A stretch of 64,000 nucleotides of DNA from Oceanicoccus sp. (lineage in GTDB: Bacteria > Pseudomonadota > Gammaproteobacteria > Pseudomonadales > Dasaniaceae). The DNA lies in the NCBI RefSeq assembly GCF_029238675.1, contig NZ_JAQWFR010000010.1:1-64000 (forward strand). Direction: 5' to 3'. Each line of letters starts with the position of its first letter. Positions within the stretch are counted from its first letter, which is position 1. Positions 12,493 to 51,482 of this stretch are shown here, one piece after another. Below the pieces are notes generated by a model, which was not told the origin of the DNA, did not search any database, and saw nothing but the letters and a program-made list of their open reading frames with translations. Made by a program: the position numbers and the translations under genes.

Positions 12493-13080
12493 ATGAACGA
12501 AGAACGCCGCCGTTATTTTAGAATTGATGACTCTATGGGAGTCTCCTATCGCTGTATAGGTAACGAAGAGGCAAAGGTCTTTACTAAGCAGTCCCTGGAA
12601 CATGGTGGCGCGTTTGATTTTGCGGCTAACTTTGATAACCGTATTCAAACTTTATTGGATACCTGCAAAATTCAAGTGCCGGTAGCCGCTGAATTAATTG
12701 ATTTGATGAATAAAAAACTCAACTTTGTGATTGCACAAATGGATGTGGATTCTGAGTTGATGCACAAAATTGCTTATTCGTTAAAGCAGGTTAATGTCAG
12801 TGCCTGCGGTATGGCTTTTGCTAATGAGGAGGTGTTGAAAAAAGGGCAGTTATTGCAGTTGGATATTATGCTGCATCCCTCTGAGCTGCATGTTTCTGCT
12901 TTAGCAGAAGTTGTTGACTGTATACCGCTGGATGTTGGTGAGGTGCAGGATGATAAAATCTGTTTTGTACGGGTTGATTTTACTGAAGTAAACGGTAATG
13001 ATCAGGAATTATTGATCCAGCATATTGTCAAACGTCAATCAGAAATACTGAAACAAAAACGCCGGTTGGCTGACTCTTAA
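12493..13080 (+). CDS. PilZ-domain protein (c-di-GMP receptor candidate)
   Basis: A 195-residue cytosolic protein. RRRYFRI (5-11) supplies the PilZ RxxxR element, and NVSACGMAF (about 99-107) corresponds to the D/NxSxxG motif; an insertion of about 80 residues, partly helical, separates them. Position 13 bases after pomB suggests co-transcription and a role linking c-di-GMP to motility, as for YcgR-type brakes, though this one lacks the YcgR N-domain. Confidence 0.75.
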   Translation: MNEERRRYFRIDDSMGVSYRCIGNEEAKVFTKQSLEHGGAFDFAANFDNRIQTLLDTCKIQVPVAAELIDLMNKKLNFVIAQMDVDSELMHKIAYSLKQVNVSACGMAFANEEVLKKGQLLQLDIMLHPSELHVSALAEVVDCIPLDVGEVQDDKICFVRVDFTEVNGNDQELLIQHIVKRQSEILKQKRRLADS

Positions 13081-13110
13081 GAGGTATTATCACAAAAAGG
13101 AGTTGGGTTT

Positions 13111-13680
13111 GTGCAAATACTACGATTGAATAAAGCTGGTCACCCTATTGACTGGCTGCATTGGCAGGATGCGGTTTGCCTTATCTCCCGTGAGTTAGTG
13201 TGTTGGAGTATGGGTGATATTATTTTTAATATCCACGGTGGCTACAACCGTTTAACTGAAAAACGCTCTGTGATTGAGTTGCCTAGTATTATCGCCTGTG
13301 GGGGTGAAAAACTGGCCCGGGTTAAAAGCAAGTCTCCTTTAAGTAACCGAGCCCTTTTTGAGCGTGACAATAATCAATGTATGTACTGCGGTCATTTTTT
13401 TAATGCCAAAGAGCTAACCCGGGATCATATCATTCCCAGCTCCAGAGGTGGCCGAGATATATGGGAGAATGTGGTTGCAGCCTGCCGTCGTTGCAACCAG
13501 CATAAGGCAAATCGAAAATTGAATGAAACCAATTTGGAATTATTGGCATTGCCTTATCGGCCAAACCCTGCAGAATATTTAGCGCTGGTAAATAGTCGGC
13601 GTATTCTGCCAGAGCAGGCAGATTTTTTAAGTAAGCAGTTCTCTGCGAATTGCCGTTGGCAAATGCCAGTGGTGCATTAA
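13111..13680 (+). CDS. HNH endonuclease family protein
   Basis: A 189-residue protein from GTG, with AAAAGGAG upstream. The HNH fold is clear: CMYCG zinc knuckle, ELTRDHIIPSSRGG, WENVVAACRRCNQHKANR with the second CxxC pair and final Asn/His. The N-terminal RxLNKAGHPIDW segment and LALPYRPNPAEYLAL tail are found in widely conserved bacterial HNH proteins with unproven substrate. It is not linked to a restriction or CRISPR system here. Confidence 0.82.
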   Translation: MQILRLNKAGHPIDWLHWQDAVCLISRELVCWSMGDIIFNIHGGYNRLTEKRSVIELPSIIACGGEKLARVKSKSPLSNRALFERDNNQCMYCGHFFNAKELTRDHIIPSSRGGRDIWENVVAACRRCNQHKANRKLNETNLELLALPYRPNPAEYLALVNSRRILPEQADFLSKQFSANCRWQMPVVH

Positions 13681-13695
13681 TTTTTTGGAGTTGTT

Positions 13696-13935
13696 ATGTG
13701 GCCTGCCTTTGTTATCGCTTTGTTATCCGGTTTATGTATCGGTTATTGGGTAGGTAGAAATACCCGTTCTTCCTCCGCCTTTGAAGCGGAGCAACAATTA
13801 GAGCAGGCCGGGCAGGATTTAGAGCAGGCCCGCAGCACACAAAAGTTGTTAGAGCAGCAGGTGGCTGATTTGAAATATCAGTTAGGGGAAGAGAAAAAAG
13901 CCCGGGCTTATGCTGAGGGGCGTGATAACAGTTAG
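13696..13935 (+). CDS. Small membrane-anchored coiled-coil protein
   Basis: A 79-residue protein with an N-terminal TM helix (WPAFVIALLSGLCIGYWVG) followed by a Glu/Gln-rich coiled coil (about 28-75). A TTGGAG site precedes the ATG. It follows the HNH gene by 15 bases. No family name recognised; topology is like small inner-membrane adaptor proteins. Confidence 0.6.
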   Translation: MWPAFVIALLSGLCIGYWVGRNTRSSSAFEAEQQLEQAGQDLEQARSTQKLLEQQVADLKYQLGEEKKARAYAEGRDNS

Positions 13936-13939
13936 TTCT

Positions 13940-13967
13940 GTCACTCCCGCCTTCGCGGGAATGACGG
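13940..13967. repeat. GTCATTCCCGC-type palindromic repeat
   Basis: GTCACTCCCGC / GCGGGAATGAC, four bases after the stop of the small coiled-coil gene, between convergent genes, where it could double as a bidirectional transcription or mRNA-decay barrier. Confidence 0.75.
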
Positions 13968-14026
13968 GGTGTTTTATGACAGAGGGTTTTATGATGGGAA
14001 GCTGATAGCAATCCCCTCGCAAACCC

Positions 14027-15190
14027 CTAAATACAAATTTTATTCAGTTCACTATCCACTTTATTGGCTGTGTCTTGCTGGTCATGAGCCTTTTCAGAAA
14101 TAATACCTAATCCGGCACTGACTTCGCGAATCTGGTCGGCAATACTCGACATTTGTTGGTTAATACTATCAGTGGCATTATTTTGCATGGCGGTACCTTC
14201 GGCTATCTGCATGGCCAGACTATCGACATTGGCAACAACGGATTGTACCTGTTGTAAAACGCTTTCCACTTGTTGGCTTTGTTCAAGGCTGTTGCTGCTA
14301 AGTAGTCGCCCCTGTTCCATCGCTGCTACAGCGCTCTGGGCTTTCTCCTGTAAACCTTCAACCATAGTTTGTATCTCACCGGTTGAATCCTGGGTACGGT
14401 GGGCCAGGGCTCTTACCTCATCTGCTACCACCGCAAAGCCACGACCTTGCTCACCGGCACGGGCCGCTTCAATGGCCGCGTTTAAGGCTAGCAGGTTAGT
14501 CTGCTCGGCAATACCGCCGATCACATCCAGTACTGAGCCAATTTGCGCACTTTCTTCCTGCAGGCGGGCAATATTTTCGCTCATCAGCGCTACGTTATTG
14601 ACCAGCTCTTTCATCGAGGCCTGGTTGGAGTTCGAGGCTCCTGACCCCAGCTCCAGCGACTCCAGTGCCTCGCCAATGGTTGAGGTAATTTGACCGGCAG
14701 TGTCAGACAGGGTTGAGGATGTGTCGGCAATTTGGCCGATAGACTCGGCAATATTAAGGGCTTCCGAACTGCTGGTTTCCAGCTGCTGAACTGAGTTGGA
14801 CATTCTTTGAGCCTGATCCTGAGAGCCTTGTAAGACATTATTGGCATCACTACGAATATTGGTCATTACATCACGCAGATCCTCAATAAAGCGATTGAGA
14901 GTATTGCTGATTGCGGCCAGCTCATCTGAACCGGGGTCTTGCAGCGGGTTTGATGGGGCTGTTTCAGTGCTGATGACCAGATTCAAGTAGGTATCCAGCT
15001 CGTTCAGGCGGTTGACCACCTGAGTCTTAATACTCCAGGCTACTACGGCGACCAGTACTATCGCGGCAATGGCCACGGTGAAGATATTAATAGTATCCAA
15101 GGCAAAATGGATCACGGCCAGAATGATAATGCTGGCGATTCCTGCCGGTAACAGGGTGCGCCCAAGCAGGCTAGATGAAAATAAAGGCAT
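14027..15190 (-). CDS. Methyl-accepting chemotaxis protein, short N-terminus
   Basis: A 387-residue chemoreceptor. Two hydrophobic stretches (about 10-30 and 33-52) with almost no periplasmic loop, then HAMP-like sequence and the long signalling coiled coil. The kinase-contacting tip is [23 protein letters not shown]. With no external sensor domain, it probably senses internal or membrane signals. No C-terminal CheR-docking pentapeptide is seen (ends NKICI). Not in an operon with che genes. Confidence 0.88.
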
Positions 15191-15506
15191 GGTTTTATCT
15201 CGTTTCGTTATAAATAGAGCGATAATGGTTTAATTGTAGCAACTGCTGAAAATTGAGCATGGATATATTCACCTAATCTTTCTATGGGATGGCGCTAAAT
15301 TTATTTGTTTTGTCGGGGTGGGGCTATGGGCACCAGAAGTGTCATATAGAGTGAGTGTGTTAGGAAAAACTACTTTCATTGCTGGAACTTAAGCCACAAT
15401 AGACTTAAAGTAGTAACATTATATTTTATGGGGTTGAACGACTACTGGCTGGAGCTCTGACGGAGTGCCCGCAGCGGCCACTTTTATTAACAGGATTGAA
15501 TGCACT
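15191..15506. other. Intergenic region upstream of the GntR gene
   Basis: About 315 bases between divergent genes. A possible promoter for the GntR gene lies around the A/T-rich stretch ACATTATATTTTATGG near 15417. No RNA gene, ORF or clear GntR operator palindrome was recognised. Confidence 0.4.
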
Positions 15507-15538
15507 GGTAGATAGGTAGATAGGTAGAAAGGTAAAAA
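15507..15538 (+). repeat. Four 8-bp direct repeats overlapping the ribosome-binding region
   Basis: GGTAGATA, GGTAGATA, GGTAGAAA, GGTAAAAA run head to tail and end one base before the ATG of the GntR gene. The last copies supply the only purine-rich site before the start. Confidence 0.85.
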
Positions 15539-15539
15539 C

Positions 15540-16325
15540 ATGGATTTGGTCATCGATAAACTGTTTACCCAGTTAGAACTGGAATCATTAAGGGGTGAGG
15601 CGCCAACACCGCTCTATCACCAGATGTATACCTTGCTGAAAAGCCGTATTTTGGACGGTTCTATTGCCCATAGCACTCAGATGCCTACGGAGCAGCAATT
15701 AGCAGAAGCTTTTAATATATCCCGTATTACCGCTAAGCGGGCGATGGATGAATTAGCCGCTGAGGCGTTGGTTGAGCGCCGTCGTGGTAAAGGCACCCAT
15801 GTTACTCACCATTACAGCCCTGAGCCTGTGCCGGCACCATTGACGGGGATGTTGCAGAAGTTGGCCAGTACGGATCAGAATACCAAAATCAAAGTACTTG
15901 ATGTGGGTATGCTGGTGCCACCGGGTGATATTCGGATTGAGCTGGGTTTGCAGGATGATGAAAAAGCCCATCGTGTTGTTCGGGTGCGAAGCACTGAAAA
16001 TGGCGAGCCCTTTGCGCACTATATAAGCTGGACAGTAGGTATGAAGGAGGGCTTTAGTCGCAGCGACCTGGAAACTCGCGTTCGTTATGACATTATGAAA
16101 GAAAATGGCCATGAAGTGACTCGCATTGACCAGAACCTGACGGCTATCAGTGCCCAGGAATTTGTTGCCAATGAGCTGGATATGAAAGTTGGTGAGCCCG
16201 TGCTTAGTCTTACCCGTCGCTCGTTTACTGAAGACGGCCGTCTGGTTGATATTCTCTACTGCCACTATAACCCCAAGCGTTTTCAACACCGCATGTCTAT
16301 GGATATGGACGACTACCGCGGTTAG
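15540..16325 (+). CDS. GntR-family transcriptional regulator (HutC/UTRA subfamily)
   Basis: A 261-residue protein. The winged HTH spans about 22-92 (TPLYHQMYTLLKSRILDG, QMPTEQQLAEAFNISRITA, LVERRRGKGTHV). A UTRA ligand-binding domain follows (about 110-255; RVRSTENGEPFAHYISWTV). Such regulators bind a metabolite and release DNA. The downstream NmrA-like gene is 69 bases away; the effector is unknown. Confidence 0.87.
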   Translation: MDLVIDKLFTQLELESLRGEAPTPLYHQMYTLLKSRILDGSIAHSTQMPTEQQLAEAFNISRITAKRAMDELAAEALVERRRGKGTHVTHHYSPEPVPAPLTGMLQKLASTDQNTKIKVLDVGMLVPPGDIRIELGLQDDEKAHRVVRVRSTENGEPFAHYISWTVGMKEGFSRSDLETRVRYDIMKENGHEVTRIDQNLTAISAQEFVANELDMKVGEPVLSLTRRSFTEDGRLVDILYCHYNPKRFQHRMSMDMDDYRG

Positions 16326-16394
16326 ACGCTATTTAACCACCTGAAGTCATAGTCCGCTATAATTGCCCCTCATAATTCCCGGAGGCAAAACGCA

Positions 16395-17258
16395 ATGAGC
16401 GAAACAATTTTACTAACTGGCGCCAATGGCAAAACCGGTAGAGCTATCTTAAAAAAACTGGTTGGCTTAAAGCTGGTAGTAAAAGTTTTTATCCGCGATA
16501 AAAACCAATGGCAGGATTTAAAGGCATTGGGTGCAGCAGGTTTTGCTGTGGGGGATATGTTAGATGTTGATAGCATTGATAGTGCCGTTATGGGTTGTCA
16601 AAAAATTATCCACGTTGGCCCACCCATGCACCCTGATGAAAAAACCATTACCCAATCATTTATTGAAGCGGCGATAAAACAGAATATAGGCCATTTTATT
16701 TACTATTCCGTAATGCATCCCTTGCGCCGTGATGTTCGTCATCACCGCCTAAAGCTGGACGCCGAAGAAGTGTTGGTTGAGTCGGGTATTCCCTACACCA
16801 TTTTGCAACCCATTCGTTATATGCAGCATCTTTTACCCATTTGGAATAAGGTAGTAGAGGAGGGGGTGCATGCCATGCCGTTTAATACCGAGGTGATGTT
16901 CAACGTGGTGGACCTTGAAGACCTGGCGGAAGCTACAGCCATTGTTGCTGCCGAGCCTGGCCATTATTTTGCCACCTATGAGCTGGCAGGCGTTGAGCCA
17001 TTAAGCCAAACGGATATGGCAGCGATTATTTCAGATGTGATTGGTACGCCTGTTACAGCCCAGGCTATTTCACAGCAACAGCTAGCAGACAATGCCCGGG
17101 AGAAAGGGTTTAACGAAGACAAGGTTGAGCAAATGATGCTTATGAATAAGCACTATGATGACTGTGGCTTTTTGGGTAGCCCGAATGTGTTGCGCTGGAT
17201 ACTGGGCCGCCAGCCCACCCTTTATCGTGAGTTTGTAGAGCGTTTACACCAAGCCTGA
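16395..17258 (+). CDS. NmrA-family NAD(P)-binding protein
   Basis: A 287-residue atypical short-chain dehydrogenase. The Rossmann motif TGANGKTGRAIL is at residues 8-19, and the conserved HVGPPMHPDE and YYSVMHP segments follow. The catalytic YxxxK is not evident, as in NmrA-like redox-sensor proteins or atypical reductases. CCCGGAGG precedes the ATG. It may be the target of the upstream GntR regulator; substrate unknown. Confidence 0.78.
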   Translation: MSETILLTGANGKTGRAILKKLVGLKLVVKVFIRDKNQWQDLKALGAAGFAVGDMLDVDSIDSAVMGCQKIIHVGPPMHPDEKTITQSFIEAAIKQNIGHFIYYSVMHPLRRDVRHHRLKLDAEEVLVESGIPYTILQPIRYMQHLLPIWNKVVEEGVHAMPFNTEVMFNVVDLEDLAEATAIVAAEPGHYFATYELAGVEPLSQTDMAAIISDVIGTPVTAQAISQQQLADNAREKGFNEDKVEQMMLMNKHYDDCGFLGSPNVLRWILGRQPTLYREFVERLHQA

Positions 17259-17287
17259 CAGGGGTTTGGTACAGAGTAGAGGTCAGG

Positions 17288-17315
17288 TTGTTAGTCAATC
17301 AGCATCTGTTATACT
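17288..17315 (+). promoter_or_regulatory. Sigma-70-like promoter candidate upstream of csrA
   Basis: TTGTTA, 16-base spacer, TATACT. It is about 190 bases before csrA, giving a long leader. The assignment to csrA is by position only. Confidence 0.4.
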
Positions 17316-17501
17316 TCTGCAACTTAGGGTGATTGTTAGATGTAATGCCCTATAAAGTGCGATCTATTCTTTACTGGTTTATGCACACCCTCGGGTGGTT
17401 CCAGTATTGTAAGCAGGAGCTAGAAATATACGGGTGGTAACTGTATTGAAGCCAGGTGAGGCAGTGATGGATTATGAGAAAGTGACTGTAGGAGAAAGGC
17501 T

Positions 17502-17705
17502 GTGTTAATACTAACCCGAAGAATTGGTGAAACTGTTATCATCGGTGATGATGTAAAAATCACTGTATTAGAAGTTCAAGGTAATCAGGTCCGTTTGGGT
17601 ATCAGTGCCCCCCGTGAGGTAGAAGTCCACCGCGAAGAAATTTACCAGCGTATCCAGCAGGAAAAAGCCGGTAATATTGATCCCGATAATCGTGGCAATC
17701 GCTGA
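17502..17705 (+). CDS. csrA: Carbon storage regulator CsrA
   Basis: A 67-residue post-transcriptional regulator, nearly identical in pattern to the family ([37 protein letters not shown]). R44 and L4 RNA-contact positions are present. CsrA dimers bind GGA motifs in mRNA leaders. GTG start with AGGAG upstream. The usual lysC or alaS neighbours are missing. Directly repeated GATTAAGCAAACATTT units and a terminator follow. Confidence 0.96.
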
Positions 17706-17725
17706 TTAATAACCGTTAGTCGATG

Positions 17726-17787
17726 GATTAAGCAAACATTTGATTAAGCAAACATTTGATTAAATAAACATGGATTAAGCAAACAAT
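17726..17787 (+). repeat. Four ~16-bp tandem repeats in the csrA 3' UTR
   Basis: GATTAAGCAAACATTT twice exactly, then two diverged copies. Several ATGGAT sequences lie at the edges. They sit between the csrA stop and its terminator. Confidence 0.85.
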
Positions 17788-17792
17788 GGATC

Positions 17793-17826
17793 AAAAAAAG
17801 CGCAACCCTTGGGCTGCGCTTTTTTG
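17793..17826 (+). terminator. Rho-independent terminator of csrA
   Basis: A-run, GCGCAACCC, TT, GGGCTGCGC, T-run. The matching A and T runs could make it bidirectional, also ending the convergent chrR transcript. Confidence 0.9.
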
Positions 17827-17858
17827 TTTGTGGTTCTATCTTTTCGTTTTATCAAAGC

Positions 17859-18515
17859 TTAGTGAGCAAAATGATCTCTACGTAAGATTGGGTTTAACCA
17901 GCGCGTAAAGAAGCCAGTAAACTCGATGGGAGCATCCGTCACTGTGAGGCAGATACACTCTCTATCTTCAGTGACCATAGGTTTATGCTTGTGGCGGCCA
18001 TCCCGAACCACAAAATCCCCTTCCTTATAAACACCGCTTTCATCCGAGAAACTACCCTCCAGTAACATAGTGTATTCATCGCCGGTATGGGTATGGCTGG
18101 GAACCTGACCACCAGGCTTGATACGTAACATTTCAACTTTTGAGCCGTTGCTGTCAGTACACAGTCTGGCCGCCTGGATGGACGGAGACACACGGTGCCA
18201 CTGCAAAGAGTCATAATCATCGGGAATAAACTGCTGCAGTGCGCGGGGCACTCGCGAGTCGCGATTGTTCACTGGGGTAGCTTCCGTCACCTCATCATCA
18301 AGCATAGACAGTACACTACTTTTAAGGTTTTCAGATGCTTTGGCGGGTTTTAGCTCTTCCATCAAGTTGGCACCCATACTATTCAGGCGCATAAGATTGG
18401 AGCGACATTCATCGCAATGTTCAAGGTGTGTGGAAATACACAGGGCATGGCTAAGCTGTAAGCTGCCTGCTGAAAACGCTGCGAGTAATTCCGGGGCTGG
18501 GTGATGGTTCGCCAT
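17859..18515 (-). CDS. chrR: ChrR-family zinc anti-sigma factor (cupin sensor)
   Basis: A 218-residue anti-sigma factor. The N-terminal zinc domain has H30-x3-C34-x2-C37 plus an early His; the C-terminal cupin domain has H141, H143, E147 and H177, and a CxC at 187-189. These agree with the zinc ligands I recall for Rhodobacter ChrR, where the cupin domain is required to release RpoE on singlet oxygen. It starts six bases after the sigma gene, with GAGGTAG as ribosome site, so the pair is one operon. Confidence 0.92.
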   Translation of the reverse strand: MANHHPAPELLAAFSAGSLQLSHALCISTHLEHCDECRSNLMRLNSMGANLMEELKPAKASENLKSSVLSMLDDEVTEATPVNNRDSRVPRALQQFIPDDYDSLQWHRVSPSIQAARLCTDSNGSKVEMLRIKPGGQVPSHTHTGDEYTMLLEGSFSDESGVYKEGDFVVRDGRHKHKPMVTEDRECICLTVTDAPIEFTGFFTRWLNPILRRDHFAH

Positions 18516-18521
18516 CTGTAT

Positions 18522-19145
18522 CTACCTCTTTAACAACAATTCTAATTTCTGTAATGCCAGGCGGACGCGGGATTTAACGGTTCCCAGCGGCAGTCCCAAT
18601 TCGTCTGAAGTCTCCTGGTGGCTTTTGCCCTCCAGGTATACCTTCGCTAATACTTGCGCCTGCTCAATCGGCAGCTGCTTTAGGCCTTCATGGATCTTGC
18701 TTTCAACCCGCTGCTGTTGAGCCAGTTGAAAAGGGTCTGGACCTTCATCTTCCATATTATTGAAGATTTCGGTCGGATCAATTTCTGTACTGAAGCGGCC
18801 ATTGCGCCTTAGATAGTCAATCCTGGAGTTTCTGGCCAGGGTAAAAATCCAGGTAGAAACCGCCGCCATATCGGGCTTGTAGGTATGGGCTTTATTCCAT
18901 ACCTTGATCATTACCTCTTGGGCTAGTTCATCGGCTAACAGGGCTGCACCTGGTTCCCGGGCTAAACTATAGGACCTGAGTAGCGGTGCAAAATGATCAA
19001 ATAACTGCTCAAAGGCCAGTTTGTCGCGGTCTTCAGCGACTTTTGCCATTAGCTGTTTGAGCCTGGCATTACGTTCAGCATTAGAAACACCGGCCTTACT
19101 GCTTACTGTGGACATACGGGCCTTCCTCTTAAGGGGATTAGACAT
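18522..19145 (-). CDS. rpoE: ECF sigma factor, RpoE/ECF11 type
   Basis: From the ATG at 19145 (AGGTGA upstream) the protein has 207 residues; an ATG at 19115 with AGGAAGG is an equally good start. Region 2 (FDHFAPLLRSYSLAR to AAVSTWIFTLARNSRIDYLRR) and region 4 (LPIEQAQVLAKVYLEGKS, LGLPLGTVKSRVRLAL) are complete. Paired with chrR it is of the photo-oxidative-stress group. A TGATCC element 78-83 bases upstream of the ATG suggests autoregulation. Confidence 0.92.
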   Translation of the reverse strand: MSNPLKRKARMSTVSSKAGVSNAERNARLKQLMAKVAEDRDKLAFEQLFDHFAPLLRSYSLAREPGAALLADELAQEVMIKVWNKAHTYKPDMAAVSTWIFTLARNSRIDYLRRNGRFSTEIDPTEIFNNMEDEGPDPFQLAQQQRVESKIHEGLKQLPIEQAQVLAKVYLEGKSHQETSDELGLPLGTVKSRVRLALQKLELLLKR

Positions 19146-19198
19146 TATGTTCACCTATCATAGTGTGTTTCTCGGCTATGGCCTATTGGAGTTTTATT

Positions 19199-19228
19199 TT
19201 TGTACGGGCATGGGCACAGTATGGATCA
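19199..19228 (-). promoter_or_regulatory. Candidate RpoE-dependent promoter of rpoE-chrR
   Basis: Minus strand TGATCC (19228-19223), 18-base spacer, TACAAA (19204-19199). TGATCC is the -35 element I recall for RpoE of Rhodobacter sphaeroides. It implies a leader of about 45 bases. Confidence 0.55.
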
Positions 19229-19266
19229 CAGGGCCTGCTTATTCAGTCGGCTTTGGGGGAGGTATT

Positions 19267-19296
19267 TAATCCAATTAGGAAAAACAGGCGTATAAT
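19267..19296 (+). promoter_or_regulatory. Candidate promoter of the lipid operon
   Basis: TAATCC, 18-base spacer, TATAAT. It differs from the rpoE element by one base in the -35 but has a full sigma-70 -10, so either sigma could use it. Confidence 0.4.
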
Positions 19297-19405
19297 TTCG
19301 AACAAGATGAATGGATATACAAGGGCTCCAGAGTGGTTTCGGGAGCATCTTATAACAGTCTGTTAAAACAAGTTAACTGTGGGCCCAATGTGGAAGCAGC
19401 GCACT

Positions 19406-19834
19406 ATGAGTAACAATCATATTATCGAACTTTTTAAAGCCAGCTACAGCGACATGATGCAGCTGGATCTTGGCCATCTCGACCAGCTATATACCCGCGA
19501 TATGGTCTTCAAAGACCCGGTACACCAGGTTAGGGGGCTGCCGGCCATGCAGGACTATATGGCGGATATCTCTAGTAATGTTGAAGAATGCCGCTTTGAA
19601 TTCCTCGACCAGTTGGTATCTGACAATGCGGCTTATATGAAGTGGGATATGCACTTTCGTCATCCTAAACTGGGAGGTGGTCATTTAATTACCGTTAGGG
19701 GCATCAGCCAAATTCACTTTGACGAGCAGATTCATTATCATGAGGATGCCTATGATATGGGGCAGATGGTCTACGAGCATATTCCCGTGATCGGGGGTGT
19801 TACCCGGTGGCTAAAAGCGCGCTTGGCTGCATAA
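19406..19834 (+). CDS. SnoaL/NTF2-like protein of the ChrR-linked operon
   Basis: From the ATG at 19406 (GGAAG upstream; a GTG nine codons earlier is in frame) the protein has 142 residues. The cone-shaped NTF2-like fold is suggested by LYTRDMVFKDPVHQVRGLPAMQDYM and the late HEDAYDMG strand. Members are small hydrolases, isomerases or scaffolds. It is the first gene of the seven-gene operon facing away from rpoE-chrR; its exact role in the pathway is unknown. Confidence 0.75.
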   Translation: MSNNHIIELFKASYSDMMQLDLGHLDQLYTRDMVFKDPVHQVRGLPAMQDYMADISSNVEECRFEFLDQLVSDNAAYMKWDMHFRHPKLGGGHLITVRGISQIHFDEQIHYHEDAYDMGQMVYEHIPVIGGVTRWLKARLAA

Positions 19835-19856
19835 GCCCATTACAGAGATAATAATA

Positions 19857-20621
19857 ATGTCTGCAATTCAAGAGGTTCAAGGTGAGGTCATTTGGCTGAC
19901 CGGTGCCAGTACAGGGATTGGCAGGGCACTAGCTATAAAGTTGGCGTCTCAAGGTAATACCGTGATCGCCAGTGCCAGAGGCCAGCAGGCACTGAATGAA
20001 TTGGCCGCAGAACATGACAATATTATTCCCCTTGCTTTTGATATTAGCCGTGAAGACCAGATAGAAACCGTTCGGAAACAGCTGCTTGAGCACTCCGGCC
20101 ATCTTGATCGTGTGGTACTCAATGCCGGTACCTGTGAATACCTGGATATTGACCAGCCTGACTGGACGATGATGCAGCGGGTAATGACGGTGAATTATTT
20201 TGGCACCATCAACTCCTTGGCGGTAGCCATGCCGTTGCTGGAAGCCAGTGCCAGGCCTCATATCGTTGGCGTGGTGTCCCTGTCCACCGTAGTACCGTTT
20301 TCACGTGCCGAAGCCTACGGCTCATCCAAGGCTGCCCTGCAATACTTCTTTGATTCATTGCGAGTTGATTTGGTGAAAAAGAACATTGATGTTACCGTGA
20401 TTAACCCCGGCTTTGTAAAAACTCCCTTAACGGATAAAAATGATTTCTCCATGCCTTTTCTAATGTCATCAGAGGAGGCGGCTGATCGTATGGCTAACGC
20501 GATTGCCAAGAGGCCAGCACAGTTTGATTTTCCCGGACGGTTAAAGTGGATATTGAAAGCGCTGGGTTTTATTCCGGCGTTCTGGAATAAAGTCATAGCA
20601 CCTTCATTGAGCGTAAAATAG
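19857..20621 (+). CDS. Short-chain dehydrogenase/reductase
   Basis: A 254-residue classical SDR: cofactor motif TGASTGIG (15-22), NAG (89-91), Ser near 141-143 and catalytic Y154-x3-K158. It likely reduces or oxidises a carbonyl/alcohol with NAD(P)H. A C-terminal hydrophobic segment (LKWILKALGFIPAFWNKVI) may bind membrane. SDRs recur in RpoE/ChrR lipid operons; the substrate is unknown. Confidence 0.85.
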   Translation: MSAIQEVQGEVIWLTGASTGIGRALAIKLASQGNTVIASARGQQALNELAAEHDNIIPLAFDISREDQIETVRKQLLEHSGHLDRVVLNAGTCEYLDIDQPDWTMMQRVMTVNYFGTINSLAVAMPLLEASARPHIVGVVSLSTVVPFSRAEAYGSSKAALQYFFDSLRVDLVKKNIDVTVINPGFVKTPLTDKNDFSMPFLMSSEEAADRMANAIAKRPAQFDFPGRLKWILKALGFIPAFWNKVIAPSLSVK

Positions 20622-20643
20622 CAGAATAAAAAGAGAGTTATTA

Positions 20644-21894
20644 GTGAAAATAGCAGTTATAGGCTCAGGAATTTCCGGTTTAAGTTCCGCCTATTTATTA
20701 CAGCACGATCATGAAATTACCGTATTTGAAAGTGAGGCGAATATTGGCGGCCATACGGCAACGATGGATGTGACGCTACAGGGCAAAGACTATGCCGTTG
20801 ATACGGGTTTTATCGTCTATAACGATTGGACCTACCCCAATTTTATTCGCTTAATGGATGAGTTAGGTGTGCAATCACAGCCCACAGAAATGAGCTTTAG
20901 TGTGAGTTGTGACTTATCTGGCTTGGAATACGGCGGCAATAACCTCAACACCTTGTTTGCCCAGCGGCGCAATATTTTTAGCCCTTCTTATTTAAAAATG
21001 ATCAAAGATATTCTGCGTTTTAATAAAGAGTCGATTGAGCATTTAGAGTCGGGTCGTATAGAAGAGGGCATTACCTTAGGCGAATATTTAAAAAGTAATG
21101 GCTACGGTGAAACCTTTGCCAATAAATATTTGATCCCTATGGGTAGCGCTATTTGGTCAGCCTCTACCGATAGTATGTTTGATTTTCCGTTATTGTTTTT
21201 TGTACGCTTCTTTAAAAACCATGGCTTATTAAGTGTTAATAATCGCCCCCAGTGGCGAGTGATAAAAGGTGGGTCCCGGGAATATCTACAGCCATTGACC
21301 GCAGGCTTTAAAGATCGCATTCGCGTCAATAGCCCAGTGGCAAGCATCAGCCGTGATGAAACCGGTGTTGATATAAGTCTGGCCGATGGTTCCATAGAGC
21401 GCTTTGATCAGGTAATAGTGGCGAGCCATAGTGACCAGGCATTATCCATGTTGAACGATGCTACTGTCGCAGAAAAAGAAGTACTGGGTGCTATTCCCTA
21501 CCAGAAAAATGATGTGGTGTTACATACCGATGCAAGCATTTTACCCAATAAAAAACTAGCCTGGTCCAGCTGGAACTACTGGCTACGTTCAGAGCGTCAG
21601 GAGCAGGCCATACTGACCTACAACATGAATATCCTGCAGGGTATTGAGGCGCCAGAAACTTTTTGTGTCACCCTGAATGCCACAGAGTCAATTGACAGCA
21701 GCAAAATATTGGGTCAATACAACTACAGTCACCCGGTATTTTCTCTGCAGTCCGTAGCTGCTGCTGAGCGTTGGGGTGATATTAATGGTGTTAATCGCAC
21801 CTGGTTTTGCGGTGCTTACTGGGCTAATGGCTTTCATGAAGACGGTGCCAGCAGTGGCATTCGTGTGGCCAAAGCACTGGGTGCAAAGTGGTAA
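20644..21894 (+). CDS. FAD-dependent amine-oxidase-like oxidoreductase (UfaD-like candidate)
   Basis: A 416-residue flavoprotein; GTG start. The dinucleotide motif is GSGISGLSSAYLL (7-19), followed by GGHTATMDV and DTGFIVYN, typical of the COG2907 group found beside cyclopropane-synthase homologues. The C-terminal FAD segment is FCGAYWANGFHEDGASSGIRVAKAL. In R. sphaeroides a flavoprotein of this type acts with a methylase in making furan fatty acids; a similar role here is inferred. Confidence 0.82.
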   Translation: MKIAVIGSGISGLSSAYLLQHDHEITVFESEANIGGHTATMDVTLQGKDYAVDTGFIVYNDWTYPNFIRLMDELGVQSQPTEMSFSVSCDLSGLEYGGNNLNTLFAQRRNIFSPSYLKMIKDILRFNKESIEHLESGRIEEGITLGEYLKSNGYGETFANKYLIPMGSAIWSASTDSMFDFPLLFFVRFFKNHGLLSVNNRPQWRVIKGGSREYLQPLTAGFKDRIRVNSPVASISRDETGVDISLADGSIERFDQVIVASHSDQALSMLNDATVAEKEVLGAIPYQKNDVVLHTDASILPNKKLAWSSWNYWLRSERQEQAILTYNMNILQGIEAPETFCVTLNATESIDSSKILGQYNYSHPVFSLQSVAAAERWGDINGVNRTWFCGAYWANGFHEDGASSGIRVAKALGAKW

Positions 21895-21898
21895 GTGG

Positions 21899-22678
21899 AT
21901 GAAAAGTGCAATCTACAAAGGCTGGGTCCGCCATCGTCGCTATACTCCCAGGTATCATAGCCTGCAGTATAAAATTTTTATGATGTTGCTGGACCTGAAC
22001 GAGTTAGACGAAGTCTTTAAGGGGACCCGGTTGTGGTCTACCAGGCGCTGGGCTTTGGCTCGCTTTAAGCGCGAAGACTTTCTCGGTGATCCTTCTATTC
22101 CCCTTGATACCGCCGTCAGGCAGCAGGTTGAAAAGCAAACCGGTATTTATCCGGATGGTCCCATCCGCTTATTGAGCAACCTGCGTTATTTTGGTTTTAT
22201 TATGAACCCTATTAGCTGTTACTACTGCTTTGATAAGCAAGAGCGGCTGCAAACCATTATCGCTGAAGTGAATAATACTCCCTGGGACGAGCGTCATTGC
22301 TACGTGCTATCTTGTGACCCAAGCCGCCAATACCAGCGTATAAGTTTTAACAAAGAGTTTCATGTGTCGCCGTTTAATCCAATGGATGTGCGATACGACT
22401 GGCGCAGCAGCTTGCCAGATGACAGTTTGCGTATCAATATGCAAAACTGGCGAGGCGAGGCCGATAAGGAAGTCATGGAATTTGATGCCACTCTGGTTTT
22501 GGAGCGAGAAGAAATCAGCGCGACTAAATTACGGCGGCTAATTTGGAGTTATCCATTAATGACCTTGAAAATAGTTGCAGGCATTTATTGGGAAGCTGCT
22601 AAGCTATTCGCCAAAGGAGTCCCGGTTTTTGATCACCCCAAAAATAACGAGCCAAAAAAGCCATTAGCTCAACCGTAA
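21899..22678 (+). CDS. DUF1365 family protein
   Basis: From the ATG at 21899, four bases after the oxidoreductase stop, the protein has 259 residues. The open frame extends upstream into that gene but those codons are not family-like. SAIYKGWVRHRRYTPRYHSL and YFGFIMNPISCYYCFD are the DUF1365 hallmarks. Its members nearly always sit between this flavoprotein and a Cfa-like gene. Function is unproven; involvement in fatty-acid modification is inferred from context. Confidence 0.85.
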   Translation: MKSAIYKGWVRHRRYTPRYHSLQYKIFMMLLDLNELDEVFKGTRLWSTRRWALARFKREDFLGDPSIPLDTAVRQQVEKQTGIYPDGPIRLLSNLRYFGFIMNPISCYYCFDKQERLQTIIAEVNNTPWDERHCYVLSCDPSRQYQRISFNKEFHVSPFNPMDVRYDWRSSLPDDSLRINMQNWRGEADKEVMEFDATLVLEREEISATKLRRLIWSYPLMTLKIVAGIYWEAAKLFAKGVPVFDHPKNNEPKKPLAQP

Positions 22679-22739
22679 AGATAAAGCGCGGGTGAGATAA
22701 ACCTTAACAGTAACTGGAAATAAATAGAATAAAATACCT

Positions 22740-24005
22740 ATGAGCATTGCAAGCGTAAATAATAAAACCAGCCGCGAAGTTAAAGCCAGTTTTTGGGATG
22801 CCATGGCAAAAAAAGCCTTGCTAAAGGCGATGGCTCATATCACCACTGGCCGATTAATTCTTGAAGAGGATGGTGAAGTCTATGAATTTGGTGAGCCAGC
22901 AGAGACGGCAAGCCTGATTGCCCATGTGTTTATTCACCACCCCTCAACCTATAAAGATATTTTATTGGGTGGCTCTATCGGTTCCGCTGAAGCTTATATG
23001 TTGGGTAGTTGGTCTTCATCAAGTTTGCTGGATGTGATTCGCCTGATGACATTAAATTTGGATATGCTGAATAAAATGGATAATACCCGTCCATTATTGA
23101 ATCGTATCTCTTCAAAGGTCATGCATCTGCTTAATGCCAATACCCAAAGCGGTTCGCGCAAAAATATTTCCGCTCACTATGATTTGGGTAACGACTTCTT
23201 TGCTTTATTTCTTGACCCCACCATGATGTATTCCTCGGCTATTTTTCCTTCGGAAAATGCCAGCCTGGAGGAAGCTTCATTATTTAAGCTGGATAGTATT
23301 TGTAAAAAGCTGCGCTTAGGTGAGGGCGACCACCTAATGGAAGTAGGAACAGGGTGGGGCGGTTTAGCGATTTATGCGGCCAAAAACTATGGCTGTAAAG
23401 TGACCACTACAACGATCTCACAAGAGCAATATGATTACGCCTGCGCCGCTGTTAAGCGCGAAGGGCTGGAAGATAAAATCACCCTATTGCTGGAAGACTA
23501 TCGTGACCTGAAAGGTCAGTATGACAAACTGGTTTCCATCGAAATGATTGAGGCCGTTGGCCACGAATACTACGACAACTACTTTGCAAAATGTTCCAGC
23601 TTATTAAAAGATGATGGTTTGATGTTAATCCAGGCAATTACCATTGCTGACCAGCGTTACCAGCAAGCCAAGCGTACGGTTGATTTTATCCAGCGTTATA
23701 TTTTCCCGGGAGGTTGCTTGCCCTCTAATGAAATTATTGCGCAATGCATATCGCGCAATACCGATATGATGATGGTTAATCACCATGATATCGGCCGGGA
23801 TTACGCTAAGACATTGGCTGAATGGCGCAAGCGTTTCCATACTGAAATTGATACGGTTAAGCAGATGGGCTTTGATGATGTATTCTGCCGTATGTGGGAA
23901 TTTTATCTTTGTTACTGTGAGGGAGGCTTTGCCGAGCGTGCTATCAGTACTGCGCAAATTGTATTTGCAAAACCGGGCGCCAGGGAGATTACTCCAGCTC
24001 ATTAA
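22740..24005 (+). CDS. cfa: Cyclopropane-fatty-acyl-phospholipid synthase-like methyltransferase
   Basis: A 421-residue SAM-dependent enzyme. The N-terminal lipid-binding part (1-140) precedes the catalytic domain, with KNISAHYDLGNDFF (141-154), MMYSSAIF (162-169) and SAM motif EVGTGWGG (201-208), then SIEMIEAVGH. It methylates unsaturated acyl chains in membrane phospholipid, giving cyclopropane or, as with UfaM, branched-methyl products. Regulation by the neighbouring ECF sigma factor is likely. Confidence 0.9.
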   Translation: MSIASVNNKTSREVKASFWDAMAKKALLKAMAHITTGRLILEEDGEVYEFGEPAETASLIAHVFIHHPSTYKDILLGGSIGSAEAYMLGSWSSSSLLDVIRLMTLNLDMLNKMDNTRPLLNRISSKVMHLLNANTQSGSRKNISAHYDLGNDFFALFLDPTMMYSSAIFPSENASLEEASLFKLDSICKKLRLGEGDHLMEVGTGWGGLAIYAAKNYGCKVTTTTISQEQYDYACAAVKREGLEDKITLLLEDYRDLKGQYDKLVSIEMIEAVGHEYYDNYFAKCSSLLKDDGLMLIQAITIADQRYQQAKRTVDFIQRYIFPGGCLPSNEIIAQCISRNTDMMMVNHHDIGRDYAKTLAEWRKRFHTEIDTVKQMGFDDVFCRMWEFYLCYCEGGFAERAISTAQIVFAKPGAREITPAH

Positions 24006-24510
24006 AGGCGCCGCGAACAAGAAACTCCTCAATGCTGCGCTGTTTCAGCTGGGCTGGTTTGCCTGTGTGTTAGGCGGCGATGCGATTGCCTTTGTGGTGA
24101 CTGCCACCATTCTCTGTATCCATCAGTTATTTGTTGTTAATAAACGTTTTGAATGGTCGTTGATTGCGATTGTCGCAGTTACTGGCTTTGTTGTAGATAG
24201 TAGCTTGGCTCATTTCGGTGTGTTTTCTTTTAAGTCATCTTCATTATTCTATATCCCGTTCTGGTTATTTTGTCTGTGGGTGTTATTTGCTACCACTTTA
24301 AATCATAGTCTTGAATGGTTAAAAAACTGGTTGTGGCTGGCCGTAATATTGGGTGGTTTTTTCGGTCCAATGTCTTATTTTGCAGGCAGTAGACTGGCTG
24401 ATGTCGCCTTGTCTTCGCCGCCGTTATTGTCAATGGTGTATATCAGTCTTTGTTGGGCCGTGTTATTACCCGCTTTTTATCTCTATATTCGCTTCCGGGA
24501 AGTCCAGTAA
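23965..24510 (+). CDS. DUF2878 family membrane protein
   Basis: About five to six hydrophobic helices in 170-180 residues; conserved opening NAALFQLGWFACVLGG and the FGPMSYFAG motif identify DUF2878. The start is uncertain: TTG at 23965 overlaps cfa by 41 bases, while an ATT at 24001, just before the cfa stop, would give the usual short N-terminus but a rare start codon. No ATG or GTG lies at the expected place. Translational coupling to cfa is likely. Function unknown; possibly lipid transport or modification. Confidence 0.75.
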   Translation: MQNRAPGRLLQLIKGAANKKLLNAALFQLGWFACVLGGDAIAFVVTATILCIHQLFVVNKRFEWSLIAIVAVTGFVVDSSLAHFGVFSFKSSSLFYIPFWLFCLWVLFATTLNHSLEWLKNWLWLAVILGGFFGPMSYFAGSRLADVALSSPPLLSMVYISLCWAVLLPAFYLYIRFREVQ

Positions 24511-24512
24511 TT

Positions 24513-25289
24513 GTGCTTGGTTTTTTGTATAAAACCGGCATGTTACTCCTGCTTTTATCGCAGGTTTACGCTGATAGTCTAACTGTTGTCGGCGATGCCT
24601 ATGCCCCGGATGGAGATGCATTGCTGTACCGTGAGTTTCATTATTATTCTGATGATGGTATGGACCATCGGGTGGTCTATATGACGCAGGATAATATCAA
24701 AATGGCTGAGAAGTCTCTTAATTACAGGTCGGGTAAATCTACTCCTGCCGTTAACCACCAAGCCTGGGTGTATCCGGAGAAGATACAAATAGTTTTGGAT
24801 AAAGACCAGTTATCACTCGCCTATACCGACAATGACAATGAAGAAGACCGCGCTACCCTGGATGCCAATTGGCCGTTGGTCATTGATGCGGGTTTTGATA
24901 ACTATGTGCGAGAAAATTGGTCATCCCTGTTGAACGGAGCCATTCTGGAATTTTACTTCCCGGCACCAACCCGTATGAGTCTGGTCAATTTAAGAATTAA
25001 GCAAAAGCTTTGTTCGGCTGAGCAGCCGGATGATGTTTGCTTTTCGATAAACTCTTCTAATTGGTTTATTCGTTTGCTGCTAGACCCCATTGAGCTAAGC
25101 TATGACAAAAATACCAGGCAACTCAGTCGCTTTAGGGGCTTAGGGAATATGATGGATAAAAAAGGCAAAAGTTTGGTGGTAGATATCCGCTACCGTTACC
25201 AAAGTCTATGTGTTGACCCCGACAAATGCACTCGAGGGCAGACTCCGGCGAAAATAACTATCGTCATTCCCGCGAAGGCGGGAATCTAG
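24513..25289 (+). CDS. Secreted protein of unknown function, last gene of the lipid operon
   Basis: Starts at GTG two bases after the DUF2878 stop; 258 residues. A signal peptide (GMLLLLLSQVYA) precedes a beta-rich domain with two Cys (KLCS, DVCFS). No family is recognised. The last residues, TIVIPAKAGI, are read from the repeat at 25262, which also supplies the stop codon, so the native C-terminus has been altered. Its place behind cfa suggests an envelope role. Confidence 0.65.
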   Translation: MLGFLYKTGMLLLLLSQVYADSLTVVGDAYAPDGDALLYREFHYYSDDGMDHRVVYMTQDNIKMAEKSLNYRSGKSTPAVNHQAWVYPEKIQIVLDKDQLSLAYTDNDNEEDRATLDANWPLVIDAGFDNYVRENWSSLLNGAILEFYFPAPTRMSLVNLRIKQKLCSAEQPDDVCFSINSSNWFIRLLLDPIELSYDKNTRQLSRFRGLGNMMDKKGKSLVVDIRYRYQSLCVDPDKCTRGQTPAKITIVIPAKAGI

Positions 25290-25365
25290 TGCTGTAGATT
25301 TCCGCTTTAGCGGAAATAACAGCATAAGCATGCAGGCTGGATTCCCGCCTTCGCGGGAATGACGG
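25262..25365. repeat. MITE-like composite palindrome with GTCATTCCCGC ends
   Basis: Terminal inverted repeats CGTCATTCCCGCGAAGGCGG and its complement enclose about 55 bases, with an inner hairpin TTCCGC TTTA GCGGAA. Flanking text (AGATTTCCGC, AAATAACAGCAT) is shared with the element at 42148 in reverse orientation. Confidence 0.8.
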
Positions 25366-25522
25366 TCTTTTTTGAGTGATGCAACGCCTCTAGCCACATG
25401 CAGAAAAGTGTTAAGAATATAGTTGCGTTCGGTAGATTATTACATGCGCTTAGGTAACAATATCGCCTTTAATAATAACCTGACAATAGTTGTTTGGCTG
25501 ACCTTTAAAGAGTGCAAAATCT

Positions 25523-48163: not shown

Positions 48164-49747
48164 TCAGGCTTTGTCTTCTTGAAGAATCCTGGAACGCTCC
48201 TCTTCACTTTTCGCCCACCAGTTTTTATAGGCAAGAGCCATTCTTGAATTTTTGCCAAGGGTGTCGGCATGGCGGTCTAGAAACTGCCAGTAGAGCCGGT
48301 TGATGGGGCATGCGTTTTCACCGGTGACTTCTTTAACGTTGAAGCGGCAGGATTTGCAGTAGTCACTCATACGATTCACGTAGGCGCCACTAGCGGCGTA
48401 GGGTTTGGTGCCGACGATACCGCCATCGGCAAATTGGGACATCCCTCGGGTATTGGGTAGCTGCACCCATTCCAAAGCATCGGCATAGACACCGAGGTAC
48501 CACTCGTCCACTTGGTCAGGGTTAATTCCCGCAAGCAGGAGGTAGTTACCAATAATCATCAAACGCTGAATATGATGCGCGTAGGCATAGTCGAGTGACT
48601 GGGTGATGGATTGTTTGAGGCAGTTCATCTCAGTGTCCCCGGTCCAGAAAAAGTCGGGTAAGTCGGCTTTTGCCTCCAGGCTATTTTTAGCTGCGTATTC
48701 GGGCATATTAGCCCAGTAAACGCCTCGTACAAATTCACGCCAACCCAAAATTTGCCGTACGAAACCCTCGACCTGTGCAAGGTTAATATCTTGACTTGCC
48801 CGGTAGGCAAGGATGGCCGCATCAATAACCTCGAGCGGATGCAGCAGTTTGGCGTTGATCGAAAATGACAGCCTCGAGTGATAAAGACTCCAGGCATGGG
48901 GGCTCTGGTCGGTCATGGCATCCTGGAAGCGACCAAAATCAGGTAAGCAAACCTTACAAAAAACCTCCAGCAGTTGAAGTGACTGTGCACGCGTAACTGG
49001 CCAGTCAAGCTGAGCTTTCTCGACACCAAAACGCTGGACGCCAGATTTGTCTAACAGGCTGTAAATCTCTTGGGCATCAGTATCAAACACCTTTGGGGCG
49101 GGGATACTTTGAAGGTCTTTGGTATTGAGCTTTTTACGATTTTCGGCATCGAAATTCCAGCGTTCACCCTCTGGTTTACCATCGATCATCAATAAATCAA
49201 AACGCTTGCGCATCATGCGGTAAAAAAATTCCATTTTTTTGTGCTTGCCGCGGGGGAAAAGGGCGGTTATCTCCTCGTAGGGCAAAAGGAAATGCTCGGT
49301 ATCGACAATCTCGATCAATACCTTGGCTTTGTCTTGCATATTCTGGATTTGCGTCAGGAGGCGCCACTCATCTGGTCGCTGAAAAGTAATTTGTTCTGGC
49401 TGATATCGCTCGCAAAGGTCGGTAAGTATGGAAACCAAACTTGAACTTTTCGATTTGGAATTTTCTTGCACTACGAGGGTGTGATCGAGCCTAAAGTATT
49501 CCACGCGATGACCTCGCTGTTCCAAATGCTGAGAAAAAGCTCGCATGGCCAAAAAGAAGGCGGCGATTTTCTGCGCATGATGTTTTACGTATTCCATTTC
49601 TTGTGGCATTTCCGCAAGTACGTAAAGCACATGGTCGTTTGCCTCAGCAAACCATGAGTGTTGGTGGTTGAGCTGATCGCCGAATATAAATCGTATTTCT
49701 TTGGTTGTAGTTGTAGTTGTAGTTGTAGCTTTAGTGGCTGTGCTCAA
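48164..49747 (-). CDS. Cryptochrome/photolyase-related protein, iron-sulfur (FeS-BCP/CryB) group
   Basis: A 527-residue protein from TTG, overlapping the upstream photolyase stop by four bases (TTGA). IRFIFGDQLNHQHSWF opens the family; the late MSDYCKSCRF...NACPINRLYW carries the cluster cysteines; FAD pocket GWREFVRGVYW. Members repair (6-4) photoproducts or act as photoreceptors. The N-terminus has eight Thr coded by a hexamer repeat. Operon with the DASH-type gene. Confidence 0.88.
   Translation of the reverse strand: MSTATKATTTTTTTTKEIRFIFGDQLNHQHSWFAEANDHVLYVLAEMPQEMEYVKHHAQKIAAFFLAMRAFSQHLEQRGHRVEYFRLDHTLVVQENSKSKSSSLVSILTDLCERYQPEQITFQRPDEWRLLTQIQNMQDKAKVLIEIVDTEHFLLPYEEITALFPRGKHKKMEFFYRMMRKRFDLLMIDGKPEGERWNFDAENRKKLNTKDLQSIPAPKVFDTDAQEIYSLLDKSGVQRFGVEKAQLDWPVTRAQSLQLLEVFCKVCLPDFGRFQDAMTDQSPHAWSLYHSRLSFSINAKLLHPLEVIDAAILAYRASQDINLAQVEGFVRQILGWREFVRGVYWANMPEYAAKNSLEAKADLPDFFWTGDTEMNCLKQSITQSLDYAYAHHIQRLMIIGNYLLLAGINPDQVDEWYLGVYADALEWVQLPNTRGMSQFADGGIVGTKPYAASGAYVNRMSDYCKSCRFNVKEVTGENACPINRLYWQFLDRHADTLGKNSRMALAYKNWWAKSEEERSRILQEDKA
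49705..49728. repeat. TTGTAG hexamer repeat inside the photolyase-related gene
   Basis: Four exact copies of TTGTAG (coding Thr-Thr on the minus strand) near the N-terminus. Changes in copy number keep frame. Confidence 0.9.
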
Positions 49748-51105
49748 TGTGTTCTCTCCTGATCGGTCATATCATCAGACACTATTTGTGCGTTCGTATC
49801 AGGTGTAAGCGGCCAATCGGCTGCGTCTCGGGTATCGATTTGCTCTACCGTTTTATAGCCCTGCCACCGATCGATATAATGGCGATCGGGGTCGTAGATT
49901 TGGGTTTGCTTTTCGAGGGAAAAATGCCGCTGGCCTCGCGGGTCGGCGCCCACGCCGGCTAAGTATTGCCAATTACCCCAGTTTGACGCCGCATCGTAGT
50001 CCAGCAGTTGTTGCTCAAAATAAGCCGCACCATAGCGCCAATCAAGATCAAGCTCGTTGACTAAACAACTTGCCACCACTTGTCTGCCTCGGTTGCTCAA
50101 ATAGCCAGTGGTCGCGAGTTCTTTCATGCAGGCATTGACCAGGGGCCAGGGCGTGGAGCCTTGCGTCCATGCGCGAAATCGCTCAGGGTAAAAGCTAGTG
50201 AGGGGAGCTGTTGGGTTGCGGCCTTTTTTCCAGAAAAGCTTGGCGCCAAGTTGTCGAGCAGACCAAAAGAAAAACTCTCGCCATAATAACTCAAAGTAAA
50301 TCCAGTAGGTCGATTCATTGGCGCCGTGTTTATCTTCGTATTCGCGCAAGGCCTTGATTATCGTAACGGCGGATAAACTTCCCTGTGCCAGCCAGGGCGA
50401 GAATCGGGTACTCGATTCGAAGCCCTGTAATTCATTGCGAGTTTTTTTATAGCTGAGCGGTGCCAGAGACCCGAAATAAGAATGCAGGTGTTTCATAGCG
50501 GCAGCTTCGCCACCGCGAAATACTTGGTCTGAGTTAATAGATTTGGGTAAGGGCATGCTCTTGTGAGCGTGCTTCAAGGGTTTGCTGAACAGTACGGCTG
50601 ATGCCTGCTCTCTTGGTTCGGTGGCCTGCGCTTCAATGGCTTTCCTGAAGGGGGTAAATTGCTTTGGCATTTCCCCTGCGCTAAATGGCAGGGCACTTTC
50701 CTTAAACAGTGTTGCGCTGGACACAGAATGAAAATCAACCTGTGGATAAGCGCTGTCAAAAAAGTTCCAAAGCTCGGTTTCATCGAATGCGCATTGCTGT
50801 GCTGCATAGACAGCATCTATATCATAATTGGCCAGTAATATACCCAGGTGCTCATGGGCTCGTCCGTTAATAATGAGTAGTTTATGGCCATAGTGTTCGA
50901 GCTGCTCACTCAATTTGGCAATGGCCTCAAATAAAAATCGCTTTCGATGCTCGCTTGTGCCTTTTAAACCGGGGACCGAAGCAGGTCGCAGTAGATCACC
51001 CACAAACACTACGTGAAGTACCTCTTGAGCCGCCCTGTGGGCTTCGAACAGCAGTGGGTTATCCGCTAACCTTAAATCTTGCGTAAACCAAATAAGAGCT
51101 CGCAT
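49744..51105 (-). CDS. DASH-family cryptochrome/photolyase
   Basis: A 453-residue flavoprotein. N-terminal antenna domain (ALIWFTQDLRLADNPLL) and FAD domain with YWIYFELLWREFFFW, SNRGRQVVAS and NWQYLAGVGADPRGQRHF, the DASH hallmark. It would bind FAD and probably MTHF and repair cyclobutane dimers in DNA, likely single-stranded. It follows the DUF2805 gene by 26 bases. Confidence 0.92.
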   Translation of the reverse strand: MRALIWFTQDLRLADNPLLFEAHRAAQEVLHVVFVGDLLRPASVPGLKGTSEHRKRFLFEAIAKLSEQLEHYGHKLLIINGRAHEHLGILLANYDIDAVYAAQQCAFDETELWNFFDSAYPQVDFHSVSSATLFKESALPFSAGEMPKQFTPFRKAIEAQATEPREQASAVLFSKPLKHAHKSMPLPKSINSDQVFRGGEAAAMKHLHSYFGSLAPLSYKKTRNELQGFESSTRFSPWLAQGSLSAVTIIKALREYEDKHGANESTYWIYFELLWREFFFWSARQLGAKLFWKKGRNPTAPLTSFYPERFRAWTQGSTPWPLVNACMKELATTGYLSNRGRQVVASCLVNELDLDWRYGAAYFEQQLLDYDAASNWGNWQYLAGVGADPRGQRHFSLEKQTQIYDPDRHYIDRWQGYKTVEQIDTRDAADWPLTPDTNAQIVSDDMTDQERTH

Positions 51106-51131
51106 GGTTGTTTGTCACCTAATTTAAATAA

Positions 51132-51446: not shown

Positions 51447-51451
51447 AGACT

Positions 51452-51482
51452 TAAGTACGTGTAGAAAAGCGGTAACGGATCA
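51452..51482 (-). promoter_or_regulatory. Candidate RpoE-dependent promoter of the photolyase operon
   Basis: Minus strand TGATCC (51482-51477), then TACTTA (51457-51452) after 19 bases. It shares TGATCC with the rpoE-chrR promoter at 19199-19228. Confidence 0.5.

Follow-up and report, generated by a model that had tools for sequence, protein, structure and literature searches.

The locus at positions 17859-25289 of the DNA described here is very probably an ECF11 (ChrR-sigmaE) photo-oxidative stress module that drives a furan fatty acid operon. The window, that is, the whole stretch of 64,000 nucleotides that was analysed, is contig C28 of an Oceanicoccus sp. genome of 2.32 Mb in 30 contigs (92.7% complete), and its positions 12899-25364 are 99.8% identical over 12,466 bases to a contig of Oceanicoccus sp. 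isolate Bpl_5. Open reading frame and family searches located chrR and rpoE on the reverse strand and, divergent to them, seven genes on the forward strand, every named gene being intact. The features are as follows.

17859..18515, reverse: chrR, zinc anti-sigma factor with an ASD and a cupin-like domain (PF12973, 3e-17; TIGR02451, 197 bits; PDB 2z2s/2q1z)
18522..19154, reverse: rpoE, ECF sigma factor, ECF11-like by partner and promoter (Sigma70_r2, r4_2); start at GTG 19154 or ATG 19145
19202..19228, reverse: predicted sigmaE-type promoter of rpoE-chrR, TGATCC-N16-CGTAC
19267..19293, forward: predicted sigmaE-type promoter of the lipid operon, TAATCC-N16-CGTAT
19406..19834, forward: SnoaL-like protein (SnoaL_2), NTF2 fold (PF12680, 1e-13); a GTG start at 19379 is possible
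19857..20621, forward: SDR, short-chain dehydrogenase/reductase (PF00106, 6e-41)
20644..21894, forward: UfaD-like FAD fatty-acyl desaturase, GTG start (PF01593/PF13450)
21899..22678, forward: UfaO-like DUF1365 fatty-acyl oxygenase (PF07103, 8e-83)
22740..24005, forward: UfaM-like SAM methyltransferase, CMAS/Cfa-like (PF02353, 2e-89)
~24016..24510, forward: DUF2878 membrane protein, exact start codon uncertain (PF11086, 5e-41)
24540..25289, forward: secreted protein with signal peptide, operon-linked family (24-member alignment)

Because the gaps among the seven forward-strand genes are only ~4-60 bp, their spacing is consistent with a single transcript.

The ChrR-RpoE pair and its divergent promoters

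The score of the ChrR protein against TIGR02451 lies well above the cut-off of 124.5 bits, and the protein aligned along its length with the structure of Rhodobacter ChrR (2z2s, 4e-39; also 2q1z). Rhodobacter ChrR has eight zinc ligands, H6, H31, C35 and C38 together with H141, H143, E147 and H177 (PMC6852236). The first-pass annotation had claimed a position-by-position match of these ligands, and all eight indeed align with 2z2s: H5/H30/C34/C37 of the ASD occupy the positions of the first four, and H141/H143/E147/H177 of the cupin-like domain are present with numbering identical to that of Rhodobacter. C187 and C189 also match the same Rhodobacter positions, and rpoE adjoins chrR in relatives too. 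The His-His-Cys-Cys set in the ASD, the His-His-Glu-His set in the cupin and the autoregulatory-type promoter TGATCC-N16-CGTA, by which ECF11 sigmaE-ChrR pairs are recognised, were all found, and the identity of the pair as ChrR-RpoE (ECF11) is supported.

RpoE2 promoters of Shewanella, whose transcription starts have been mapped, consist of TGATCC followed by CGTATT or CGTAAT (PMC4336711), and the Vibrio promoter consensus is TGATC-N16-18-CGTAW (PMC5241685). We scored the ECF11 motif TGATCC-N16-CGTAW over 11 positions. One predicted site per direction lies in the 263 bases that separate the sigma gene from the SnoaL gene; each scores 10/11 (on the rpoE side this count takes in the base after CGTA), and none of 500 dinucleotide shuffles reached this in both directions. 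On the operon side the -35 element is TAATCC, one departure from the motif; a locus of the same genus (L048) has the full TGATCC there. Among 22 homologous divergent regions, a set that includes the near-identical L002, scores of at least 10/11 were found in 18 on the operon side and in 16 on the rpoE side, compared to 1.1% of shuffled controls. Judging from these predicted sites, the lipid operon is likely to be under ChrR-RpoE control, as the first-pass annotation had proposed. A third match, TAATCC-N16-CGTA at 19115-19140 on the reverse strand, overlaps the rpoE start and probably arose by chance, unless the true start of rpoE is a later ATG.

In the mechanism that we propose, ChrR would keep the sigma factor inactive until singlet oxygen or organic peroxides bring about its loss, a step that is established in Rhodobacter and that we extend to this locus. 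The released sigmaE would then fire both divergent promoters, producing more of itself and of the operon. We regard as possible, but rather doubtful, a reading in which the module is real but has peroxide or blue light, and not singlet oxygen, as its main signal, and in which a LitR-type regulator may also act. In Shewanella, mutation of rpoE2 makes cells sensitive to H2O2 and paraquat (PMC4336711), a blue-light case has been described in Vibrio (PMC5241685), and Pseudomonas LitR governs ufaM and phrB (PMC9758184), MerR genes being neighbours of 12 related loci. However, no MerR gene was seen beside the operon in the window, and the ChrR cupin ligands E147 and H177, which are required for the singlet-oxygen response of Rhodobacter, are kept here. 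In non-phototrophs, the signal of the regulon may be peroxide or blue light instead of singlet oxygen.

Other sites of this type occur in the same genome. The region 48164-51482 (reverse strand) of the window is likely a second ECF11 target: TGATCC-N17-CGTA at 51482-51456 is followed by genes for a TIGR03643/DUF2805 protein (51132-51446), a DASH cryptochrome (49744-51105) and a DPRP photolyase-related protein (48164-49747). With only ~10 bases between the end of the site and the first start codon, transcription may yield a leaderless message. We count this second ECF11-type promoter before a cryptochrome operon as support for a photo-oxidative stress module. Elsewhere in the genome (L035, C27:214170-214194), TGATCC-N15-CGTA lies ~54 bases before genes for a BCP-like peroxiredoxin and a HIT-like protein, both named by eye; it may mark a further regulon member, with a spacer shorter than usual.

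The UfaD-UfaO-UfaM core

In R. sphaeroides and R. palustris, UfaM, UfaD and UfaO turn cis-vaccenoyl chains into the 9M5-furan fatty acid, UfaO being a DUF1365 protein and the oxygen of the furan ring coming from O2 (PMC7380195). The divergent FAD oxidoreductase, DUF1365 and Cfa-like genes, for which a link to furan fatty acids had been noticed at first pass, correspond to this UfaD/UfaO/UfaM set. All three are present and intact in the window in the order D-O-M. The same arrangement was shared by almost all of 62 related loci from many families of the order, a set retrieved for the most part by way of DUF1365 genes; the trio is contiguous in most of these loci, and the UfaD gene adjoins the DUF1365 gene in nearly all relatives. 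The probable orthology to the Rhodobacter Ufa enzymes rests on family, gene order and active-site signature. By analogy, UfaM would methylate the phospholipid cis-vaccenoyl chain, as shown for the Rhodobacter and Halomonas enzymes, UfaD would desaturate the methylated chain, giving a methylated conjugated diene, and UfaO would insert O2, closing the furan ring, the last two steps as shown in Rhodobacter. N126, Y135, K152 and Y166 are invariant in the UfaO-like DUF1365 proteins, and H12 and R14 occur in 61 of 63 aligned sequences, the other two rows being gapped there. A search for a solved relative of DUF1365 found none, and a model predicted from two sequences (pLDDT 55) matched nothing significantly in Foldseek (best E 0.029).

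The UfaM-like protein could instead be an enzyme that makes ordinary cyclopropane fatty acids, with the FAD and DUF1365 proteins acting on something else. Family models do name a cyclopropane synthase (PF02353; PRK11705 below its cut-off), and the homologous gene has been called cfa in two studies (PMC4336711, PMC10012899). We nevertheless consider this very improbable, since two bicarbonate-site residues of E. coli Cfa are replaced throughout the group. We take this site to be formed by C139, E239, H266, I268 and Y317. When compared with the E. coli reference, which agrees with the 6bqc alignment, the window enzyme reads S/E/Q/I/Y instead of C/E/H/I/Y (Cys139 to Ser, His266 to Gln) and thus does not carry the residue set of a cyclopropane fatty acid synthase. 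Among the relatives of UfaM, His266 is replaced by Gln in 59/59 and Cys139 by Ser or Ala in 58/59, while E239, I268 and Y317 are kept. Gln is also present in all of 14 wider-relative loci, where the Cys139 position is occupied by Ser in 13 and by Gly in the other. In contrast, Cfa-like paralogues at loci L113 and L120 retain His. Furthermore, the Halomonas homologue, encoded in a consecutive set of ufa genes, makes a methylated alkene, 11-methyloctadec-12-enoate, when expressed in E. coli (PMC12089945). By these replacements, the predicted active site fits a maker of methylated alkenes better than a maker of cyclopropanes. This simple sequence mark separates UfaM from true cyclopropane synthases, as which it is often mis-annotated.

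Distribution of the operon and its accessory genes

A contig scan with the DUF1365 protein gave two loci only, and the 62 related loci came from a wider genome search. Within the order, 106 of 145 genomes have DUF1365; in a phylum sample it is matched over most of its length in 92 of 299 genomes, to which two fragment matches are added. The chrR-rpoE pair is close to the operon in 26 of the 62 loci. The complete arrangement SnoaL-SDR-D-O-M-DUF2878-secreted with divergent chrR-rpoE recurs in several families (L051, L052, L053, L063, L064, L092, L102), so that the gene-order comparison suggested at first pass does recover the same layout across gammaproteobacteria. The combination of chrR-rpoE with a furan-lipid operon is already known and widespread, and recurs in many gammaproteobacterial families. 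These results support the view that, in many gammaproteobacteria that are not phototrophic, the furan fatty acid pathway belongs to the standard response to photo-oxidative stress.

Neighbours of the operon in related loci (for example L121, L122, L066 and L077) include photolyase, TudS-DUF1722 (RudS-like), MerR, fatty acid desaturase, Chalcone_3, DUF3833 and DUF6134 genes, some of which encode small proteins without known role. In four genomes of one genus (g16: G014, G056, G089, G117), a single stop codon lies inside the DUF1365 match, which may reflect decay or an artefact of the extended match.

The SnoaL-like family was found in 39 loci, with F35, D37, W80, D114, D117 and P127 invariant; D37, W80, D114, D117 and P127 occur in 40/40 members and H112 in 39/40, suggesting an active site and not a bare fold. 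The SDR of the window is 32% identical to that of the Rhodobacter-like locus L106, and both contain the stretch INPGF-KT-LTDKNDF-MPFLM. DUF2878, with five hydrophobic segments, exceeds its cut-off in 45 of the 299 phylum-sample genomes, 44 of which also have DUF1365 (within 6 kb in 31). The secreted protein occurs in 11 of the 299, all of them with DUF1365 (UfaO), within 6 kb in 10; both sets of counts ignore shared ancestry and are descriptive only. A literature search turned up no study on the function of DUF2878 or of the SnoaL-like member.

The 24 aligned members of the secreted family (21-78% identity to the window protein) carry signal-like N-terminal segments and a conserved DAGFD motif. 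Searches of family and structure databases gave no convincing Pfam match and no PDB relative, and a single-sequence predicted structure (mean pLDDT 41) was too poor for a structure search. By its alignment, the last gene founds a previously unannotated secreted family. A palindromic repeat (CGTCATTCCCGCGAAGGCGGGAATC and its complement) lies at 25263-25366, and the reading frame of the secreted protein ends inside it, gaining an IVIPAKAGI tail that relatives lack; a similar reading, HSREGG, is found near 13712-14011.

The first-pass annotation had named three members without an assigned step. The SnoaL-like, DUF2878 and secreted proteins remain so, and the count rises to four, since the SDR also lacks one. 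Single deletions of RSP1087, RSP1088 and RSP1089, the three additional genes of the Rhodobacter operon, leave the furan lipids and the fatty-acid profile of R. sphaeroides unchanged (PMC7380195), and for this reason we infer that the four proteins come into play once the furan lipid exists and concern what it is oxidised to or where it is placed. Most likely they are accessory and would handle or clear carbonyl and peroxide products of furan lipids and singlet oxygen; alternatively, they might serve lipid movement in the membrane and periplasm. It is unlikely that they form a dedicated gammaproteobacterial add-on by which furan lipids, once oxidised by singlet oxygen, are converted or exported, giving a lipid or signal not yet described. 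A little less likely still is that SnoaL and SDR carry out a further modification, either of the furan fatty acid or of what singlet oxygen makes of it, to give an undescribed membrane lipid whose placement or transport would fall to DUF2878 and the secreted protein. The strong linkage of the accessories to the module and the invariant Asp and near-invariant His of SnoaL, as enzymes of this fold often have, speak for such a modification. Against it stand the Rhodobacter deletions and those loci in which accessories are missing or swapped (DUF3833, DUF6134, Chalcone_3, MFS) while UfaD-UfaO stays. An undescribed lipid, suggested at first pass from the unassigned members, is thus possible but not favoured: the layout is common, and it is not required because the Rhodobacter deletions are without effect and a related SDR exists in a Rhodobacter-like locus. 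The secreted family and the conserved SDR offer well-defined entry points to what is still unexplained in the response.

Comparison with known systems

Halomonas sp. YLGW01 carries ufaM-ufaD-ufaO as the same consecutive gammaproteobacterial trio, with UfaM activity demonstrated (PMC12089945). It also has a true cfa, whereas here the UfaM-like gene is the only full-length Cfa-family match in a genome that is 92.7% complete. The RpoE2-ChrR regulon of Shewanella oneidensis shares the TGATCC-N16-CGTA promoters, a cfa operon and photolyases (PMC4336711), but its operon is unlinked to rpoE2-chrR and begins with ybgA-phrB. Aeromonas salmonicida has an operon (AXA69_RS13645-13670) of identical order, SnoaL, SDR, FAD, DUF1365, cfa and DUF2878, and these six genes went down along with chrR in an experiment with riboflavin (PMC10012899); by coordinates the operon lies away from chrR, and the secreted protein was not reported there.

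The sigmaE-ChrR system of Rhodobacter sphaeroides, with RSP1091-1087 and ufaM (RSP2144), has the same anti-sigma ligands, promoter type and UfaD-UfaO order as the window. Loci L106 and L107 carry chrR-rpoE and ufaD-ufaO-MFS-DUF3833-SDR (MFS_2 and DUF3833 being assigned in L106), a layout that equals the R. sphaeroides operon in order and approximate size (RSP1089, 402 aa; RSP1088, 186 aa; PMC7380195); judging from L106, an SDR is probably present in R. sphaeroides as well. Compared with that operon, the one described here includes ufaM and has SnoaL, DUF2878 and the secreted family in place of MFS and DUF3833.
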